64,000 bases of DNA, taken from positions 1 to 64,000 of the forward strand of contig CAILJM010000023.1 in the NCBI GenBank assembly GCA_903834515.1, written 5' to 3'. The notes below the pieces were generated by a model. That model was not told where the DNA came from. It made no database searches and saw only the letters and a list, made by a program, of their open reading frames with translations. The translations under genes were made by a program, and so were the position numbers. The stretch is from an uncultured Actinomycetes bacterium. GTDB taxonomy: Bacteria; Actinomycetota; Actinomycetes; Nanopelagicales; Nanopelagicaceae. Of this stretch, positions 2,666 to 41,537 are shown piece after piece; the first letter of the stretch is position 1; the number at the start of each line of letters is the position of its first letter.

Positions 2666-4354
2666 GTGAGCAGTCAGTTGCGCGTAGGCCTTGCTCAGAT
2701 CAATCCAACCGTGGGGGATCTGATCAATAACCGCGCTCTTATTCTCGAGTATGTAGAGAAGGCAAAGGCGGCAGGAGTCCACCTTCTGGTCTTTCCGGAG
2801 ATGGTTTTAACGGGATACCCGGTGGAAGATCTGGCACTTCGATCAACTTTTCGAAAAGCTTCTCGAAAGGCTATAGCTGAGGTAGCTGATTCCATCGGGG
2901 AGATCGCACCAGATCTCGCAGCGATCGTTGGTTACCTTGATGAGAACCAGAATGGTGCTCCACAAAATGCAGTTGCTCTCATTCATCGCGGCCAGATAGT
3001 TGCGACATACATTAAGCACCATCTCCCTAATTACGGCGTCTTTGATGAATTCCGAAATTTTGTTGCTGGTTCAAAACCGTTGGTCTTTCGATTGCATGGA
3101 ATTGATATCGGCGTGGCAATTTGTGAGGACATCTGGCACTTCGATGGTCCAGTCGCTGAGTTAGCGGCTCGCACGCCTGGGTTAGTTGTAGTTCCCAATG
3201 GCAGCCCTTTTGAACGAAACAAGGATGATCGTCGTGCCCACCTCGTTTCTCAACGGGCTCGAGAGATCGGAGCACCGCTCTGCTACGTAAATATGACGGG
3301 CGGGCAAGATGATCTCGTCTTTGACGGCGACTCCATCATCGCAGATGCATCGGGATCAACGATCGCTCGCGCCCCACAATTTGATGATGGCCTGATGGTC
3401 GTCGACATAGATGCGAAATCCCATTCATCGACTCCTGAGATCATCCTCTCTGAATCAACGCTTCCAGAATATAAAAAATTAATCCCAGGAATCGCACACC
3501 GCCTAGACGATGCGGCAGAAATTTGGCAGGCCGTAGTCGTCGGACTTCGTGATTACGTCGAGAAGAATGGTTTTAAAAGCGTTCTGCTGGGTCTATCTGG
3601 GGGAATTGATTCCGCAGTTGTGGCCGCTATCGCCGCCGATGCAATTGGGCCGCGACGCGTGTATGGCGTATCGCTGCCAAGCAAATATTCAAGCGATCAT
3701 TCACTCTCGGATGCTGAGGATTCCGCTGAGCGGATTGGACTTCACTACACAGTTCTCCCCATCCAACCGATGGTCAACTCCTTCTTAAGCGAAGTGGGGC
3801 TTACTGGACTAGCTGAAGAGAATGTCCAGGCGCGCGTGCGCGGGACAACGTTGATGGGCTTATCAAATCAGGATGGACATCTCGTCTTGGCGACGGGAAA
3901 TAAATCTGAACTTGCTGTTGGCTACTCAACACTTTATGGCGATGCCGTTGGTGGATATGCCCCCATCAAAGATCTACTCAAGATGGAAGTGTGGGCGATT
4001 GCTAAGTGGCGAAATGCGCAAGCGATTCGCAACGGCCAGATTCCACCCATCCCAGAGAACTCGATCGAGAAAGAGCCATCAGCTGAGCTTCGACCTGATC
4101 AAAGAGATAGCGATTCACTTCCGGATTATCCGACTCTTGATCGGATGTTGACGATCTATATCGATGAAGACCGGGGATTAGATGGTCTGCTCGCGGCAGG
4201 CTTCGCTCCTGATCTCTCGATGCGAACGATTCGCATGGTTGACCGCGCTGAATATAAACGTCGCCAATATCCGCCTGGACCCAAGATCTCTGCGAGGGCA
4301 TTTGGCAAAGATCGTCGACTTCCTATTACATCTCATTGGACTGAGACGAACTAA
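2666..4354 (+). CDS. nadE: Glutamine-dependent NAD+ synthetase
   Basis: This 562-residue enzyme converts deamido-NAD+ to NAD+ using ATP and ammonia from glutamine. The N-terminal nitrilase-type glutaminase domain (about 1-270) has a complete triad: Glu45 in VFPEM, Lys117 in YIKHHLPNYG and Cys153 in AICEDIW. The C-terminal synthetase domain has the ATP pyrophosphatase loop SGGIDSA at 311-317 and the conserved ATGNKSELAVGYST further on. Start is GTG; no Shine-Dalgarno is visible, but a TAGGCT -10 lies six bases upstream. The presence of the glutaminase domain means free ammonia is not required. Confidence 0.96.
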   Translation: MSSQLRVGLAQINPTVGDLINNRALILEYVEKAKAAGVHLLVFPEMVLTGYPVEDLALRSTFRKASRKAIAEVADSIGEIAPDLAAIVGYLDENQNGAPQNAVALIHRGQIVATYIKHHLPNYGVFDEFRNFVAGSKPLVFRLHGIDIGVAICEDIWHFDGPVAELAARTPGLVVVPNGSPFERNKDDRRAHLVSQRAREIGAPLCYVNMTGGQDDLVFDGDSIIADASGSTIARAPQFDDGLMVVDIDAKSHSSTPEIILSESTLPEYKKLIPGIAHRLDDAAEIWQAVVVGLRDYVEKNGFKSVLLGLSGGIDSAVVAAIAADAIGPRRVYGVSLPSKYSSDHSLSDAEDSAERIGLHYTVLPIQPMVNSFLSEVGLTGLAEENVQARVRGTTLMGLSNQDGHLVLATGNKSELAVGYSTLYGDAVGGYAPIKDLLKMEVWAIAKWRNAQAIRNGQIPPIPENSIEKEPSAELRPDQRDSDSLPDYPTLDRMLTIYIDEDRGLDGLLAAGFAPDLSMRTIRMVDRAEYKRRQYPPGPKISARAFGKDRRLPITSHWTETN

Positions 4355-4370
4355 GGCTTTATTATTTAAC

Positions 4371-4485
4371 CAGGTCACGAGTTCCAGTGTTTAGCCCCGG
4401 CTTACTGGACGGCAACCCTCCACCACGGTGGGGTGCTCCGGGTGAAGACCAGGTCGCTAGCAAAGTGCAGCGGCAAGCGTGGGTG
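4371..4485 (+). ncRNA. SAM-IV riboswitch upstream of metY
   Basis: The leader of metY carries the SAM-I/IV core: GGTCACGAG, CCAG, TAGCCCCGGC, CGGCAACCCTCC, GGTGGGGTGC, CCGGGTGAAGACC. GGTC near 4373 pairs with GACC near 4461 as P1. The CCAG/CTGG and CCAC/GGTG pairs form the inner stems. The arrangement, with CCCCGGC before the CGGCAACCC segment and GGGTGAAGACC closing, is that of the actinobacterial SAM-IV class rather than SAM-I. It should repress metY (and possibly metX) when S-adenosylmethionine is plentiful. Confidence 0.88.
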
Positions 4486-4556
4486 AATGATCTCTATCCG
4501 CATTCGATGTGGGTTATGAAGAAGCACCCTCCTGTATTCACTTTAAGGAGTGAGAT

Positions 4557-5873
4557 ATGTCGTTTGATCCAGCAAAAGCCTCATTTGAAACACGCCAAGT
4601 CCATGCCGGACAGGTCCCTGATCCAACGACAGGTGCGCGCGCACTTCCGTTGTATCAGACAACCGCTTACCAGTTCCGCGATACAAAGCATGCAGCTGAT
4701 CTCTTTGGTCTTGCCGAGTTGGGAAATATCTACACCCGCATTATGAATCCAACGCAAGATGCAGTGGAGCAACGGATCGCATCTTTGGAAGGCGGAGTCG
4801 CCGCTCTTCTTGTCGCTTCAGGATCTGCAGCCACTACGTATGCGCTTCTGAATGTTGCAGAAGCTGGCGATCACATCGTTTCATCGCCAAGTCTTTACGG
4901 TGGCACTTACAACTTATTTCATTACACCTTTAAGAAGTTTGGTATTGAAGTTACCTTCGTTGATGATCCTTCCGATCCGGAGTCATGGAAGAAGGCGATA
5001 CGTCCAAATACCAAAGCGCTTTTTGGTGAGACCATTGCAAATCCAAAGAATGAAATCTTGGATATCGCAGCCGTGGCCAAAGTTGCACACGATGCCGGCC
5101 TTCCGCTGATCGTAGATAACACTGTTGCCACACCATTTTTGATTCGCCCAATCGAGCACGGTGCCGATGTCGTCATTCACTCTGCGACGAAATTCCTCTC
5201 CGGTCATGGAAATGCGGTCGTGGGTGCGATTGTCGATGCAGGCACCTTTGACTATGCAAAACATGCGGAAAAATTCCCCAACTTTAATGAGCCAGATCCT
5301 TCTTATCACGGTCTCATCTACGCACAAGCTCTTGGCGTCGGTTCTGCCTTTGGCGCAAACTTGTCATACATCTTCAAAATTCGCCTCACCTTATTGCGAG
5401 ATACGGGCGCTGCAGTGAGCCCGTTCAATGCTTGGCTATTAGCTCAAGGCTTAGAGACACTCTCGTTACGTATTGAACGCCATGTTTCCAATGCCCAGGC
5501 GCTAGCAAAATGGCTTGAAGCCCGCCCAGAAGTAGAGAGCGTTAATTACGCCTCTCTTCCATCGAGCAAGTATCACGCCCTTGCAAGTAAATACGCGCCT
5601 AAAGGAAGCGGTTCTGTGCTCTCATTCGAAATCAAAGGCGGAATCGAAGCTGGCAAGAAGTTTGTTGAAGCACTGAAGTTGCATTCACACGTCGCAAATA
5701 TCGGGGATGTTCGCTCACTCGTGATCCATCCCGCTTCAACCACTCACTCGCAACTCACCCCTGAAGAGCAATTCACAGCAGGAGTTACTCCCGGTTTGAT
5801 TCGCCTTTCAGTGGGCATTGAAAATATCGATGACATCACGGCAGATATTGAGGGTGGCTTCTCTGCGATCTAG
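4557..5873 (+). CDS. metY: O-acetylhomoserine sulfhydrylase
   Basis: This PLP enzyme of the Cys/Met-metabolism family makes homocysteine from O-acetylhomoserine and sulfide. The 438-residue product has the family length. It includes the PLP-phosphate-binding region around residues 88-92 (ASGSAAT), DNTVATP around 188, and the Schiff-base lysine at position 212 in HSATKFLSGHG. The ATG follows a clear AAGGAG. It is controlled by the SAM-IV riboswitch immediately upstream and followed by metX, 17 bases on, so acetylation and direct sulfhydrylation of homoserine are encoded together. Confidence 0.95.
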   Translation: MSFDPAKASFETRQVHAGQVPDPTTGARALPLYQTTAYQFRDTKHAADLFGLAELGNIYTRIMNPTQDAVEQRIASLEGGVAALLVASGSAATTYALLNVAEAGDHIVSSPSLYGGTYNLFHYTFKKFGIEVTFVDDPSDPESWKKAIRPNTKALFGETIANPKNEILDIAAVAKVAHDAGLPLIVDNTVATPFLIRPIEHGADVVIHSATKFLSGHGNAVVGAIVDAGTFDYAKHAEKFPNFNEPDPSYHGLIYAQALGVGSAFGANLSYIFKIRLTLLRDTGAAVSPFNAWLLAQGLETLSLRIERHVSNAQALAKWLEARPEVESVNYASLPSSKYHALASKYAPKGSGSVLSFEIKGGIEAGKKFVEALKLHSHVANIGDVRSLVIHPASTTHSQLTPEEQFTAGVTPGLIRLSVGIENIDDITADIEGGFSAI

Positions 5874-5878
5874 AGGCC

Positions 5879-5884
5879 TACTAT
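5879..5884 (+). promoter_or_regulatory. -10 element of leaderless metX
   Basis: TACTAT, then six bases (CGATAC), then the metX ATG. This predicts an internal promoter that lets metX be transcribed independently of the riboswitch-controlled metY message. Confidence 0.5.
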
Positions 5885-5890
5885 CGATAC

Positions 5891-6991
5891 ATGAGCGCCG
5901 TAAGTAGTCGAGTCTCCGGGGCGTGGTTTGAGGACCACGACCCCGGTGATCGCCGCTTCCACAAAATAGGCGATCTTGAACTCGAATCAGGCGAATTGCT
6001 CCCCGATGTGACACTCGCGTATCAGACGTGGGGCAGTCTCAACGAGAGCGCAGATAATGCGATTCTCGTCAATCACGCCTTAACTGGTTGGTCGGATGTG
6101 CCAGGCTGGTGGCCATCGATGGTTGGGGCTGGGTTGCCTCTCGACTCCGAAAAATATTTCATCATCTGTCCAAATGTCATTGGCGGCTGCCAAGGCAGTA
6201 CTGGCCCTTCCTCACTTGCGCCAGATGGAAAGCGTTGGGGTTCTCGTTTCCCGCGCATCACCATTAGGGATATGGTCGCGGCAGAAGTTGCCCTGGCCGA
6301 TCAACTTGGAATTAAAAAGTTTGTTTTGGCAGTTGGTCCATCCCTCGGGGGAATGCGAGCGCTCGAATGGGCGATTCAATATCCAGATCGAGTCGGCGCT
6401 ATCGCAACGATTGGCTCCTCCGCCGTTGCCACGGGGGATCAAATTGCAACCGCTTCGATCCAGATCAGAGCGATTGAGACGGATCCGCACTTTAATTCGG
6501 GAGATTATTACGAGCGATCGGAAGGCCCGATAAATGGAATGGGTATAGCTAGGCGTATTGCCCACCTCACCTATCGAACAGAGTCTGAGATGGACGTTCG
6601 ATTTGGTCGTGAGCTCCAAGGGGATTCGACTGGTCGATGGGCTGTTGAGTCCTATCTCGATCATCATGCCGATAAGTTGGCGGGCCGTTTTGATGCCAAT
6701 ACCTACATCTCACTCACCGATGCCATGAACTCTCATGATGTCGGTCGAGATCGAGGGGGAGTAGCGGCTGCGCTCGCGACCATCAGAGTTCCGACCTTTG
6801 TCATGGCGATCGAGACTGATCGCCTCTTCCCGCCCAGATTGCAGGAGGAGATCGCCGAACTCACGCCCAGTTCCGCCCCTATTGAGCGCCTCAACTCTCC
6901 ATTTGGACATGATGGTTTCTTAATCGAGGTTGAAACGGTGGGAGAATTTGTCCGCCGAGCGGTCGAAACTGGGTCAAAACACCTGCACTAG
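5891..6991 (+). CDS. metX: Homoserine O-acetyltransferase
   Basis: MetX acetylates homoserine from acetyl-CoA and supplies the substrate of the preceding metY. The 366-residue alpha/beta-hydrolase-fold protein has NHALTG near residue 61, the nucleophile elbow VGPSLGG with Ser151, a late acid region (ETDRLFP) and the catalytic His in FGHDGFL near the C-terminus. Length and motif order match MetX. No ribosome-binding site precedes the ATG; a TACTAT element is positioned for leaderless transcription. Confidence 0.95.
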   Translation: MSAVSSRVSGAWFEDHDPGDRRFHKIGDLELESGELLPDVTLAYQTWGSLNESADNAILVNHALTGWSDVPGWWPSMVGAGLPLDSEKYFIICPNVIGGCQGSTGPSSLAPDGKRWGSRFPRITIRDMVAAEVALADQLGIKKFVLAVGPSLGGMRALEWAIQYPDRVGAIATIGSSAVATGDQIATASIQIRAIETDPHFNSGDYYERSEGPINGMGIARRIAHLTYRTESEMDVRFGRELQGDSTGRWAVESYLDHHADKLAGRFDANTYISLTDAMNSHDVGRDRGGVAAALATIRVPTFVMAIETDRLFPPRLQEEIAELTPSSAPIERLNSPFGHDGFLIEVETVGEFVRRAVETGSKHLH

Positions 6992-37192: not shown

Positions 37193-37693
37193 CTAGGGCG
37201 CGCTCTTTATGCGGTAATCCGCAGCACTCTCAGTATTTTCACTGCGAAAGTGCTCTACCTCTCGAAATTGCCAGTGAACCATCTCTTCGCGAATTGCTTC
37301 GCCATCTCTTTCGAGCACTCGTGCTAGCGCGATATCCGAGGGCGCTTCGATCCACAATTTAAGATCTGCACTTCCTTGCGTGGCTTTCTGGCCACTCCCG
37401 ACTCCTTCGATAATGAGCGTCGAGGGCGTCGGGCAAGAGAGCGGTTCCATGAATCGTCCCGAGATCCAGTCGTACTGTGGGATCTGAATCTCGTTAAGAG
37501 TTCTCGCTTGCTCCAAGATTGAAGTTAACGATTTGCTTACGTGCTCGGTAAATGCACCATCCCAGCCAGGATAGAGATCGTCCATATGGATAGTGAGCAC
37601 GTTTTCACCCTCCGATGCAAGGAGATCATGGATTAACGAGGCGAGTGTGGTTTTACCGCTTCCTGCTGGACCATCAATCGTGATCAGATACAT
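37193..37693 (-). CDS. Uridine-kinase-like P-loop kinase; candidate thiamine-trapping kinase
   Basis: A 166-residue nucleoside-kinase-fold P-loop protein. Walker A is GPAGSGKTT at residues 8-16, HMDDLYPGWDG supplies a substrate-side Asp, STLIIEGVGSG is the Walker-B-like strand, and a late Arg-rich lid (RVLERDGEAIREEM) follows. The ATG lies two bases after the stop of the PnuC-family transporter, on the same TPP-riboswitch-controlled message. PnuC-type channels depend on a cytosolic kinase to trap substrate: NR kinase for PnuC, thiamine pyrophosphokinase for PnuT. The context therefore suggests that this enzyme phosphorylates thiamine. The family itself is annotated only as uridine-kinase-like, and the role is inference. 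Confidence 0.7.
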   Translation of the reverse strand: MYLITIDGPAGSGKTTLASLIHDLLASEGENVLTIHMDDLYPGWDGAFTEHVSKSLTSILEQARTLNEIQIPQYDWISGRFMEPLSCPTPSTLIIEGVGSGQKATQGSADLKLWIEAPSDIALARVLERDGEAIREEMVHWQFREVEHFRSENTESAADYRIKSAP

Positions 37694-37695
37694 CT

Positions 37696-38304
37696 TTAGA
37701 GAATTGTTTTATTTGTGGATTCGCGATTCCATCGAACCCAACCGGCGAGAGCTATCGCTACAAAGATCATGTAGAGGATCGAGGTGAGATATTGACCACC
37801 GCGCCAGAATTGATATGTGTAAACGGCATCGACGACAAACCAGAGTGGCCAGGTCTCAAATTTCTCCTTGACCATGAGGACTTGGGCAATGCAGCTCCCA
37901 ACGAATCCAAAAGAATCAGTGAGCGTTGCGGCAGCGCCAAGATGAATCAGAAGTGGATTGAGAGCAATCCAGCTGATGGCGAAGCCAGAGAGCCAGTATG
38001 CATTTTTGCGTAGTGATAGACGAGCAGGTTTCGCGCCTTTTGCACCCCAACCAAACCAACCCCAAAAACCGCCGGCGATGAAGATAAATTGTAGAAATCC
38101 ACTTGCATAGTATTTTTCTTCAAAGAAGAGGATTGCATAGAGCAAGCTGCTGATATTCCACCACGGCCATGTTGAGCGCGGGCCCAAGACTCCGAGCCAA
38201 ACCCCCACAACCGAGGTAATGAAAGCGAAGAATTCGAGCACGCTGAGGTGATAGCCCCACGCTGTGAAGAGAGTGGTCATGATGATTGAATTAATGGAAT
38301 GCAC
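37696..38304 (-). CDS. pnuT: PnuC-family transporter under TPP control, probable thiamine transporter
   Basis: A 202-residue membrane protein of the PnuC family, with about seven helices and typical Trp-rich segments: GPRSTWPWWNISSLLYAILFF, FWGWFGWG and WPLWFVVDAVYTYQFW. PnuC proteins move nicotinamide riboside; homologues preceded by TPP riboswitches (PnuT) move thiamine. A clear TPP aptamer ends at this gene's ribosome-binding site. Start: GTG at 38302-38304, seven bases after AAAGGGG; an ATG eight codons further in is an alternative. The P-loop kinase follows after two bases. No thiamine biosynthesis gene is in the window, which would fit salvage. Confidence 0.88.
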   Translation of the reverse strand: MHSINSIIMTTLFTAWGYHLSVLEFFAFITSVVGVWLGVLGPRSTWPWWNISSLLYAILFFEEKYYASGFLQFIFIAGGFWGWFGWGAKGAKPARLSLRKNAYWLSGFAISWIALNPLLIHLGAAATLTDSFGFVGSCIAQVLMVKEKFETWPLWFVVDAVYTYQFWRGGQYLTSILYMIFVAIALAGWVRWNRESTNKTIL

Positions 38305-38407
38305 GGTACAACCCCTTTCCAATTCGCATTACCGAACTGGTCATACGGTCGACTTGGATTTCAAGTCCTCTCAGCCATCAAGCGGCTCCCGTTAATCCAA
38401 GGTTACC
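38305..38407 (-). ncRNA. TPP (THI-box) riboswitch
   Basis: Read on the reverse strand, the leader has ACGGGAGCC, GGCTGAGAGGA (the CUGAGA core), a GACTTG/CAAGTC hairpin, GACCGTATGACC and CCAGTTCG-GTAATG-CGAATTGG, a perfect 8-bp P4/P5 stem around the conserved UAAUG loop, then AAAGGGG. P2 forms by CGG/CCG pairing. P1 forms by GGTA with TACC and ACC with GGT, directly adjoining the ribosome-binding site and GTG start. TPP binding should therefore shut off translation of the transporter and kinase. The layout matches thiM-type aptamers. Confidence 0.92.
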
Positions 38408-40127: not shown

Positions 40128-41537
40128 ATGGCGAAATTGGAAGAAAGAGAAGGCGAATACGGCGACAAAGTCCTCGCACTCGAGCCTGGTGGTATTGAAG
40201 CGATTCCTGCAAAAGACCGACATGGAAAGGCTTCACAGCTCTTTGCAACATGGATGAGTCCAAACCTTGAATTCGCAACGATCTATATCGGCGTATTGGG
40301 TGTAGTCGCTTTTGGTTTGAGCTTCACACAAGCCGCACTCGGAATTCTTATCGGTAATGCGCTCGGCGCTCTCGGACAGTATGTCCTTACCAAAGATGGA
40401 CCAAAGTATGGCGTCCCTCAGATGGTCATAGGTCGCGCAGCATTCGGAAAACTTGGAAATATTCTTCCTGCCGTTGCAAATGCTGGCGCTGCCGGTGTTG
40501 GTTGGTTTGCAGTTAACTCAGTCTCCGGCGCTTATGCGCTCTCTGACTTAACAAAGATGAAGCCAGTACCTTCACTCGTCATCGTTGTTCTCGTTGAGAT
40601 TGTTGTCGCCTTTATTGGACATAACCTCGTTCAGAGCGTTGAAAAATACCTTTTCCCCTATCTCGTCATTGTCTTCGGTGCAGCAGGCGTCTATGCATTC
40701 ACCAGCTCACACACACATCTTGGCGCAGCTGCAGGCGGACATGTTCCTGGCGGATTTTTGATTCTCGTTGGAGCTGTCTACGGATACGCTGCTGGATGGA
40801 ACCCATTCTCATCTGACTATGCACGCTACCTTCCTGCAACCGAGAGCGGCGAGAAAGCCGGTCGCGCAGCAGGTCTTGGCATCTTTGTATCGGGATCACT
40901 TCTTCAGATCATCGGTGCAGCGGCAGCAACTGCTGGCGTTCACCTCTACGGTGCCGATACAAATCCAACAGGAGACTTTACAAGCTTGATGCCTAACTGG
41001 CTTGGAAAGCTTGTTCTCCTCGGTATTGTCGCGGGTTCAATTTGTGCAAACGTTCTCAACGTTTATTCCGGCTCAATGTCATTCCTTACCCTCGGTATCA
41101 AGGTGGGTTCAACACTCCGCCGTGCTATCGCAGCAGTTGTCTTCGGAGTTGCCGGTTTCTTGCTCGCTAAAGCTGCACTCGGAAACCCAGCGAATAACTA
41201 CGAGAACTTCCTGCTTATCATGTCTTATTGGGTTGGACCATGGCTCGGCGTAGTCTTGGCAGATAAATTCATTCGTAAGGGCGCATCGGTTGAATCTTTG
41301 CTCTTTGCGAATCGCGAAAATATCGCTGGACCAATTGCATGGGTAATTGGAACTTCCTTCTCAATCTGGGGATTTGTTAACCAGACATGGGGACATGGAA
41401 AGAGCTTCCACTATGTTCTGGGCTACTTTGTCAAGAAGAATGGAAGTCTTGGTGACATCACATTCTTCGTAGGCTTTATTGTCGCCTTCGTTATTTATTA
41501 CATCTTGGCAAAGAAGAAGGTTTCTGCCGAGAAGTAA
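40128..41537 (+). CDS. NCS1-family nucleobase transporter, probable cytosine permease
   Basis: A 469-residue secondary transporter with about twelve helices of the purine-cytosine permease (NCS1) family. An N-terminal cytoplasmic stretch is followed by helices with GLSFTQAALGILIGNALGALGQYVL and GRAAFGKLGNILPAVANAGAAGVGWFAVN, and later NPFSSDYARYLPA. The ribosome-binding site is AGGAG before the ATG. The leader of about 170 bases has inverted repeats but matches no riboswitch I know. A cytosine deaminase gene follows after a hairpin terminator, which supports cytosine as the substrate; an HMP-like or purine substrate is not excluded. Confidence 0.87.
   Translation: MAKLEEREGEYGDKVLALEPGGIEAIPAKDRHGKASQLFATWMSPNLEFATIYIGVLGVVAFGLSFTQAALGILIGNALGALGQYVLTKDGPKYGVPQMVIGRAAFGKLGNILPAVANAGAAGVGWFAVNSVSGAYALSDLTKMKPVPSLVIVVLVEIVVAFIGHNLVQSVEKYLFPYLVIVFGAAGVYAFTSSHTHLGAAAGGHVPGGFLILVGAVYGYAAGWNPFSSDYARYLPATESGEKAGRAAGLGIFVSGSLLQIIGAAAATAGVHLYGADTNPTGDFTSLMPNWLGKLVLLGIVAGSICANVLNVYSGSMSFLTLGIKVGSTLRRAIAAVVFGVAGFLLAKAALGNPANNYENFLLIMSYWVGPWLGVVLADKFIRKGASVESLLFANRENIAGPIAWVIGTSFSIWGFVNQTWGHGKSFHYVLGYFVKKNGSLGDITFFVGFIVAFVIYYILAKKKVSAEK

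Follow-up and report, generated by a model that had tools for sequence, protein, structure and literature searches.

A candidate P-loop thiamine kinase associated with TPP riboswitches and thiamine importers in Nanopelagicaceae and other Actinomycetota

We describe a two-gene operon from an uncultured member of the Nanopelagicaceae (Actinomycetota) that very probably constitutes a thiamine uptake-and-trap unit, in which a TPP riboswitch controls a PnuT channel and a thiamine kinase, and ThiL finishes the synthesis of TPP. The operon lies on the reverse strand of a 64,000-nucleotide stretch of DNA (contig CAILJM010000023.1 of assembly GCA_903834515.1, positions 1 to 64,000), which is referred to here as the window. 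In the proposed mechanism, scarcity of TPP would cause the leader to admit the ribosome, PnuT would allow free thiamine to equilibrate across the membrane, and the kinase would phosphorylate thiamine on its hydroxyethyl group with the gamma phosphate of ATP, yielding thiamine monophosphate (ThMP) that is trapped by the membrane. ThiL would convert ThMP to TPP, which in turn would close the riboswitch. The kinase would possess EC 2.7.1.89 activity in a fold unlike those of ThiK and thiamine pyrophosphokinase (TPK), and the same kinase family would serve other thiamine importers in other Actinomycetota. More broadly, we consider it likely that this family is an overlooked actinobacterial thiamine kinase that replaces ThiK or TPK non-orthologously and acts with at least four importer types, both in the most abundant bacteria of fresh waters and throughout a large second family, possibly extending to C. 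glutamicum and to members for which no link to a riboswitch was seen.

The riboswitch leader and the channel gene

A preliminary description of the locus, made from the letters of the window, had recognized a TPP aptamer in the reverse-strand leader, and an Rfam model search bears this out. RF00059 matches positions 38298-38402 (minus strand) over its full length (model positions 1-105) at 32.0 bits (E 1.4e-4); with a possible 5' strand of the P1 stem at 38407-38399, the aptamer spans 38298-38407. This score is below the RF00059 gathering threshold of 54.3 bits, and the match is therefore missing from the default Rfam scan of the window. The sole over-cut-off Rfam match in the window is a SAM-IV riboswitch at 4373-4485 (plus strand, 103.6 bits). 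The leader is the only RF00059 match across the 1.48-Mb genome to which the window belongs. In 94 of the 131 related genomes with a strong PnuT match (our own included), pnuT is immediately preceded by an RF00059 match in the same orientation, and this recurrence argues that the leader match is not due to chance; in the remaining 37 no RF00059 match was found upstream of pnuT. Across the family, PnuT-adjoining matches score about 28-50 bits. In an alignment of 15 leaders the sequences CTGAGA and TAATGCG are invariant, the aptamer core is kept, and two-sided changes are present in 7 of 21 predicted pairs. By comparative sequence analysis, the leader is confirmed as a TPP aptamer ahead of a PnuC-family gene, its match being full length, its CUGAGA core intact and its helices, P1 excepted, covarying.

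The preliminary description also had P1 adjoining the ribosome-binding site, and part of this claim stands. The Shine-Dalgarno sequence AAGGGG (38317-38312, minus strand) lies within the 3' end of the aptamer and is separated by 7 nt from the likely GTG start codon of the channel gene (38304-38302), and in the window sequence 38407-38399 can pair with the stretch that bears it (duplex -11.2 kcal/mol). The proposed stem, however, shows no covariation among the 15 sequences, in which own and swapped 5' and 3' halves have mean energies of -7.25 and -7.29 kcal/mol, respectively (permutation p 0.49). Because own and swapped halves pair equally well, we infer, rather than observe, translational control by P1. 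Most of the 15 aligned leaders share a similar Shine-Dalgarno stretch and start position (ATG or GTG).

The channel gene occupies 37696-38304 (minus strand; stop codon 37698-37696), and the first start listed for its open reading frame (TTG, 38322) falls within the aptamer. When searched as 37696-38301, the product matches PF04973 at 123 bits (cut-off 27.3, E 1.3e-35) and TIGR01528 at 65.8 bits (cut-off 42.45), which places it in the PnuC family as had been proposed; its relative in the PDB is PnuC (4qtn). In the alignment with 4QTN, the Asn of the PnuC motif 'WIVVN', presumably a residue that binds nicotinamide riboside (NR), is Asp in the window channel, and Asp is found at this position in 68 of 74 PnuT sequences, duplicates included. 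The TPP riboswitch match, together with a genome in which no ThiE or ThiC was found, identifies the channel as a predicted PnuT that would pass free thiamine.

Other transporter genes of the family were noted in passing. One PnuT homologue (G092:C1:131479-132053) is present as two overlapping pieces, the first with three internal stops, which points to gene decay or to an error of assembly. Approximately 2 kb from the TPP operon, the window contains an NCS1 permease gene (40128-41537, plus strand) that has no riboswitch match and scores 70 of 310 bits, under cut-off, against the model for the CytX hydroxymethylpyrimidine transporter. A TPP riboswitch directly precedes a PF02133 permease gene in G005 and G020 (Pfam tested in G005), and the NCS1 permease of the window belongs to the same Pfam family.

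The kinase and its distribution in the Nanopelagicaceae

The second gene (37193-37693, minus strand) extends from an ATG at 37693 to a stop at 37193 and encodes 166 amino acids. Its start two bases after the stop of the PnuC-family gene, and its nature as a P-loop protein with the uridine kinase fold, had both been put forward in the preliminary description and both hold. The protein matches PF00485 at 27.5 bits (cut-off 22), and an AlphaFold model (24 family members; mean pLDDT 97) has UCK2 as its nearest solved fold (TM 0.70-0.78 by query length for the chains listed), the kinase being about 40 residues shorter than the UCK2 structures. Scores against uridine kinase models are under their cut-offs (NF004018, 48 of 180 bits; TIGR00235, 41.5 of 220.3 bits) and are exceeded by that of NF005115 (PRK06547), a model labelled 'hypothetical protein', which gives 103.8 bits against a cut-off of 173. 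The TPK catalytic domain PF04263 is absent among the Pfam families listed for the kinase (25 of 30), and the model is a P-loop UCK/PRK structure rather than the aminoglycoside-phosphotransferase type of ThiK. The alignment of relatives shows little or no variation at the Lys of Walker A, the HMDDLYxGW Asp, the YDW Trp, the EGVG Glu and two arginines. A kinase fold with Walker A, an Asp typical of the superfamily, and conserved Trp and Tyr speaks for the proposed role; the HMDDLYxGW Asp may serve as catalytic base, and aromatic residues may hold the thiazolium.

The distribution of the kinase was determined in a single sample of 151 genomes of the family, incomplete ones included, that was used for every census search. 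The kinase is present in 139 genomes (weak in G011, at 38 bits, and partial in G089) and PnuT at any strength in 137, a tally that takes in weak PnuC-like matches; strong PnuT, defined by matches down to E 2.8e-20, is found in 131. TPP riboswitch matches at E up to 0.1 occur in 109 genomes, 13 of them over cut-off. ThiL is present in 143 genomes (129 over cut-off) and in 82 of 83 high-quality genomes; the high-quality genome G119 has no ThiL match. TPK was found in none of the 151, using searches that matched 8 of 14 genomes in a control set. ThiC is present in two genomes and ThiE, at above 160 bits, in seven, strong ThiE not being found in the other 144. At E up to 0.01, PF02581 also matches 78 further genomes, each single match at most 24.9 bits, with G016, G019 and G116 passing the cut-off only when neighbouring pieces are added; none of these was counted as ThiE. 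With ThiL present and TPK, ThiE and ThiC largely absent, something must make ThMP.

Within the family the kinase occurs together with ThiL where ThiE and TPK were not found, and it is present in all 78 high-quality genomes without ThiE. Of the 12 genomes that lack it, five are ThiE genomes (G005, G014, G020, G032, G044), and the other seven are 60-86% complete; in G096, G135 and G146 the PnuT gene reaches the contig end, the place where the kinase is expected. Five of the seven ThiE genomes thus lack the kinase, which is present in 137 of the remaining 144 (Fisher p 2.5e-5). Restricting the comparison to high-quality genomes, 80 of 83 possess the kinase and the three that do not (G005, G020, G032) are ThiE genomes (Fisher 1.1e-4). 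These Fisher values are only indicative because the genomes are related, and since the genomes with ThiE and without kinase comprise four of one genus plus one, as few as one or two events may underlie the complementarity. G003 and G076 have ThiC and ThiE and have kept the kinase.

The genome of the window itself, in which a check for TPK and ThiL had been proposed, contains ThiL (228 bits, cut-off 184) and has no match to TPK, ThiE or ThiC. The preliminary description had left the substrate as thiamine or thiamine phosphate. Comparative evidence supports the former; the latter fits less well because ThiL, the second-step enzyme, is already present here and in 143 of the 151 genomes. The kinase most likely makes thiamine monophosphate, with ThiL predicted to complete the pathway.

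Two other substrates or reactions can be weighed against this distribution. The substrate might instead be HMP or hydroxyethylthiazole, taken up by the transporter for salvage as a precursor or breakdown product of thiamine, and YkoEDC and ThiXYZ, relatives of which are linked to the kinase elsewhere, are in fact also listed as HMP transporters in Table 1 of a survey (PMC6593275). Yet without ThiE, which was not found in 144 of 151 genomes including our own, the known route cannot join phosphorylated precursors to ThMP; this reading is very unlikely overall, and for the Nanopelagicaceae we reject it on the ground of the missing strong ThiE. That the kinase is a one-step TPK which makes TPP directly would account for the lack of canonical TPK from all 151 genomes and would conform to the usual content of PnuT operons, but is scarcely tenable: it would idle ThiL in genomes without ThiE, in conflict with the presence of ThiL in 143 of the 151, and the UCK-fold enzymes of which we know transfer a single phosphate.

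Gene order links the thiamine kinase candidate to the channel. In 124 of the 128 genomes with both genes, the kinase comes immediately after PnuT in the same orientation, with a median gap of 65 bp, and in the other four PnuT, the kinase or both are at or near a contig end. Full TPP-PnuT-kinase triplets number 88. This count used the TPP matches near PnuT plus one other in G138; TPP matches of other loci were left out (all those over cut-off, the sub-cut-off ones of G003, G021 and G094, and two weak ones), as were weak extra kinase matches of G028, G089, G094 and G112.

The 11 genomes with the kinase and without strong PnuT have different thiamine genes. In all 11 the kinase directly precedes a pknB-like gene; the gene upstream of it is crtB-like in eight and another gene in G076, G112 and G118 (polyprenyl synthetase in G076, the one of the three that was tested). 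A TPP riboswitch lies ahead of a ThiB-like gene in nine of the 11 (G003, G011, G021, G033, G077, G094, G095, G112, G118), and the three such genes tested (G095, G011, G033) score over the TIGR01254 cut-off. G076 has a TPP riboswitch ahead of a gene of PF09819, which we take to be the YkoE-type family, and another ahead of thiC-thiM-thiE-thiD; G003 has an operon like that of G076, with profile matches to ThiC and to proteins of the ThiM and ThiD types. No TPP match was obtained in G149. The layouts of the kinase-less and PnuT-less genomes indicate that loss of the kinase accompanies ThiE and that the kinase stays where it is when the transporter changes. At two loci without the kinase (L086 and L087, of G005 and G014), a TPP-led thiO-like gene and thiG precede pknB and thiE is divergent (thiG of G005 is a PF05690 match), as if one thiamine module had been swapped for another at the same place.

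Because the kinase holds its place before pknB with or without PnuT, adjacency within this family alone is weaker evidence than the counts suggest. The possibility that the kinase is a mere syntenic neighbour of pknB is answered by the second family described below, in which it has other neighbours and transporters, and by L102, where a PnuT-kinase pair is located beside another gene set, although a search at E up to 0.05 gave no TPP riboswitch there.

Kinase loci in a second family and across the phylum

A scan of the genome collection with the kinase profile returned 31 loci, some of them mere Walker-A look-alikes. In Aurantimicrobium (L120), a 61-bit TPP riboswitch is followed by ykoE-ykoD-ykoC and then by the kinase, and the same order is found in G375 and G418, with riboswitches of 58 and 55 bits. 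The YkoEDC names are based on PF09819 for YkoE, paired ABC ATPases, CbiQ and the riboswitch, as well as on general knowledge of such operons; other gene names without a profile match rest on likeness among the loci and on the same general knowledge. The family of G418 (120 genomes, 85 genera) was taken as a second family for analysis and is probably Microbacteriaceae, as the kinase of its member G560 groups with that of Aurantimicrobium.

Of the 120 genomes of this second family, 116 have the kinase and 118 have a TPP riboswitch, which is over cut-off in 107. In at least 70 of the kinase genomes a TPP riboswitch lies on the same strand 2.4-4.5 kb upstream of the kinase (median 3.0 kb; 150 riboswitches listed), against a chance expectation of about 0.15, as calculated from the 150 listed riboswitches, a tested span of 6 kb and genomes of ~3 Mb. 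The 46 other kinase genomes have no upstream TPP riboswitch among the matches listed, 20 of these having no listed match at all, and G418, one of the 46, does possess one.

Ten loci (L172-L181) illustrate operon types rather than frequencies, because they were picked for a nearby TPP riboswitch. Six have the order TPP-YkoEDC-kinase and three the order TPP-ThiB-ThiP-kinase, with an ABC ATPase match in one; at the ThiBP locus tested, ThiB is over the TIGR01254 cut-off and the permease scores 40.6 of 395 bits against the thiP model. The tenth, L180 of G450 (approximately 2849-6584, minus strand), contains a TPP riboswitch, a thiamine-binding-domain gene, an ABC permease, an NMT1/THI5-like protein, an ATPase and the kinase, and appears to represent a further, ThiXYZ-like transporter type linked to the kinase. 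One genome (G407) has a TPP-YkoEDC operon without the kinase, which is encoded at another place.

Two of the kinase-less genomes of this family have other thiamine enzymes: G460 carries the only TPK among the 120 genomes, with both TPK domains, and G515 has ThiC and ThiE as well as matches for ThiD, ThiG and ThiO. Two small genomes (G472, locus L183; G532, locus L186) have TPP-led ThiBPQ operons, and no kinase or TPK was detected in them.

Beyond these two families, NF005115 matches at E up to 1e-10 in 27 of 296 genomes across the phylum, our own included, and in one of 14 control genomes, that of C. glutamicum. No over-cut-off TPP riboswitch was found near the kinase in 30 wider loci, 15 of which were searched with only 1.5-kb flanks, and at E up to 0.05 the TPP model matches neither L103 nor L117, as was the case for L102. 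Two apparent YkoEDC-type loci were not counted, namely L115 (Pseudoclavibacter), where the ATPase beside the kinase resembled YkoD but is of the oligopeptide-transporter type, and L113 (Brevibacterium), where a 27-bit fragment at the end of a contig is the basis for the YkoC label. In a tree of 90 kinases, the PnuT-linked members and the members linked to YkoEDC or ThiBPQ fall in two parts with unlinked members between them (L113 is labelled YkoEDC in this tree, although it was not counted as such). In view of the unlinked members and the TPP-free loci, an ancestral thiamine role for the whole kinase family is no more than plausible.

The preliminary description had called for a search of the neighbourhoods of kinase homologues, and the outcome is in keeping with its proposal: besides following PnuT in the Nanopelagicaceae, the kinase ends TPP-controlled YkoEDC, ThiBP(Q) and ThiXYZ-like operons at the loci of the second family whose context was readable. 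As judged from gene context at such loci, the shared denominator of the kinase loci is thiamine uptake, not nucleosides or nicotinamide riboside. An NR pair, in which the channel is PnuC for NR and the second gene an NR kinase, would agree with the PnuC family membership of the channel, with the naming of TIGR01528 as an NR transporter and with the presence of NRK1 among the PDB matches of the kinase profile. It is nonetheless highly improbable, given the TPP riboswitch upstream, the succession of the same kinase family to three other kinds of thiamine importer, the Asp in place of the PnuC Asn, and the association of kinase absence with ThiE or TPK in 7 kinase-less genomes. Hardly credible, finally, is a uridine/cytidine kinase of the genome that stands in the operon by happenstance, as its UCK2-like fold and the lack of a second match to the kinase in the genome might suggest, in view of the scores far under the uridine kinase cut-offs, the shorter chain and the association, seen across two families, with thiamine importers of four types.

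Relation to known thiamine systems

The riboswitch and PnuT half of this system is already published for the lineage. A study of acI bacteria, in the available part of its text, calls four genomes thiamine auxotrophs in which nearly all biosynthetic and salvage enzymes are missing, and reports a THI element upstream of a pnuC-like gene that is read as PnuT (Sci Rep 2017, PMC5301498). The acI genomes and the present one are alike in lineage type, in the combination of a THI element with a putative PnuT, and in thiamine auxotrophy; that same part of the paper names no thiamine kinase, a role that we propose for the gene following PnuT. If true, this assignment closes a gap, since imported thiamine must become TPP in a lineage said, in the text available, to be without salvage enzymes (PMC5301498), and it would allow sharper predictions of the need for vitamin B1 among abundant freshwater bacteria. 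Among the other importers, YkoE has a published structure with thiamine, and the available text of PMC5037267 reports THI control of ykoEDC operons. ThiK, ThiM and ThiN are given as the signature salvage enzymes in the portion available of one survey (PMC6593275), and the word 'kinase' does not appear in the main text, as available, of a survey of TPP regulons (PMC3766115). Among the openly accessible papers listed, there was none that names this kinase and no P-loop or otherwise new thiamine kinase.

PnuT operons normally carry thiamine pyrophosphokinase. Such operons and the one described here have in common a Pnu-type channel, a phosphorylating enzyme that traps its cargo and TPP riboswitch control; they differ in that TPK is the enzyme there and a UCK-fold kinase here, for which ThiL is needed in the second step. 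With the uridine-cytidine kinases, NR kinases and phosphoribulokinases of PF00485, the window kinase shares the fold, Walker A and conserved lid-region arginines; it is shorter, has conserved HMDDLYxGW and YDW motifs of its own, and lies far under the uridine kinase cut-offs. It is closer to NF005115/PRK06547, which all 24 members of the kinase alignment (A3) match at E up to 1e-5, the window protein at 104 bits remaining under the cut-off; if the proposed function is true, the 'hypothetical protein' label of a widespread family would be corrected. ThiK (YcfN) of E. coli is a thiamine kinase of the aminoglycoside-phosphotransferase fold. The reaction predicted for the window kinase is the same and is likewise followed by that of ThiL, and its P-loop UCK/PRK structure would, if the assignment is true, add another fold for thiamine phosphorylation beside those of ThiK and TPK.
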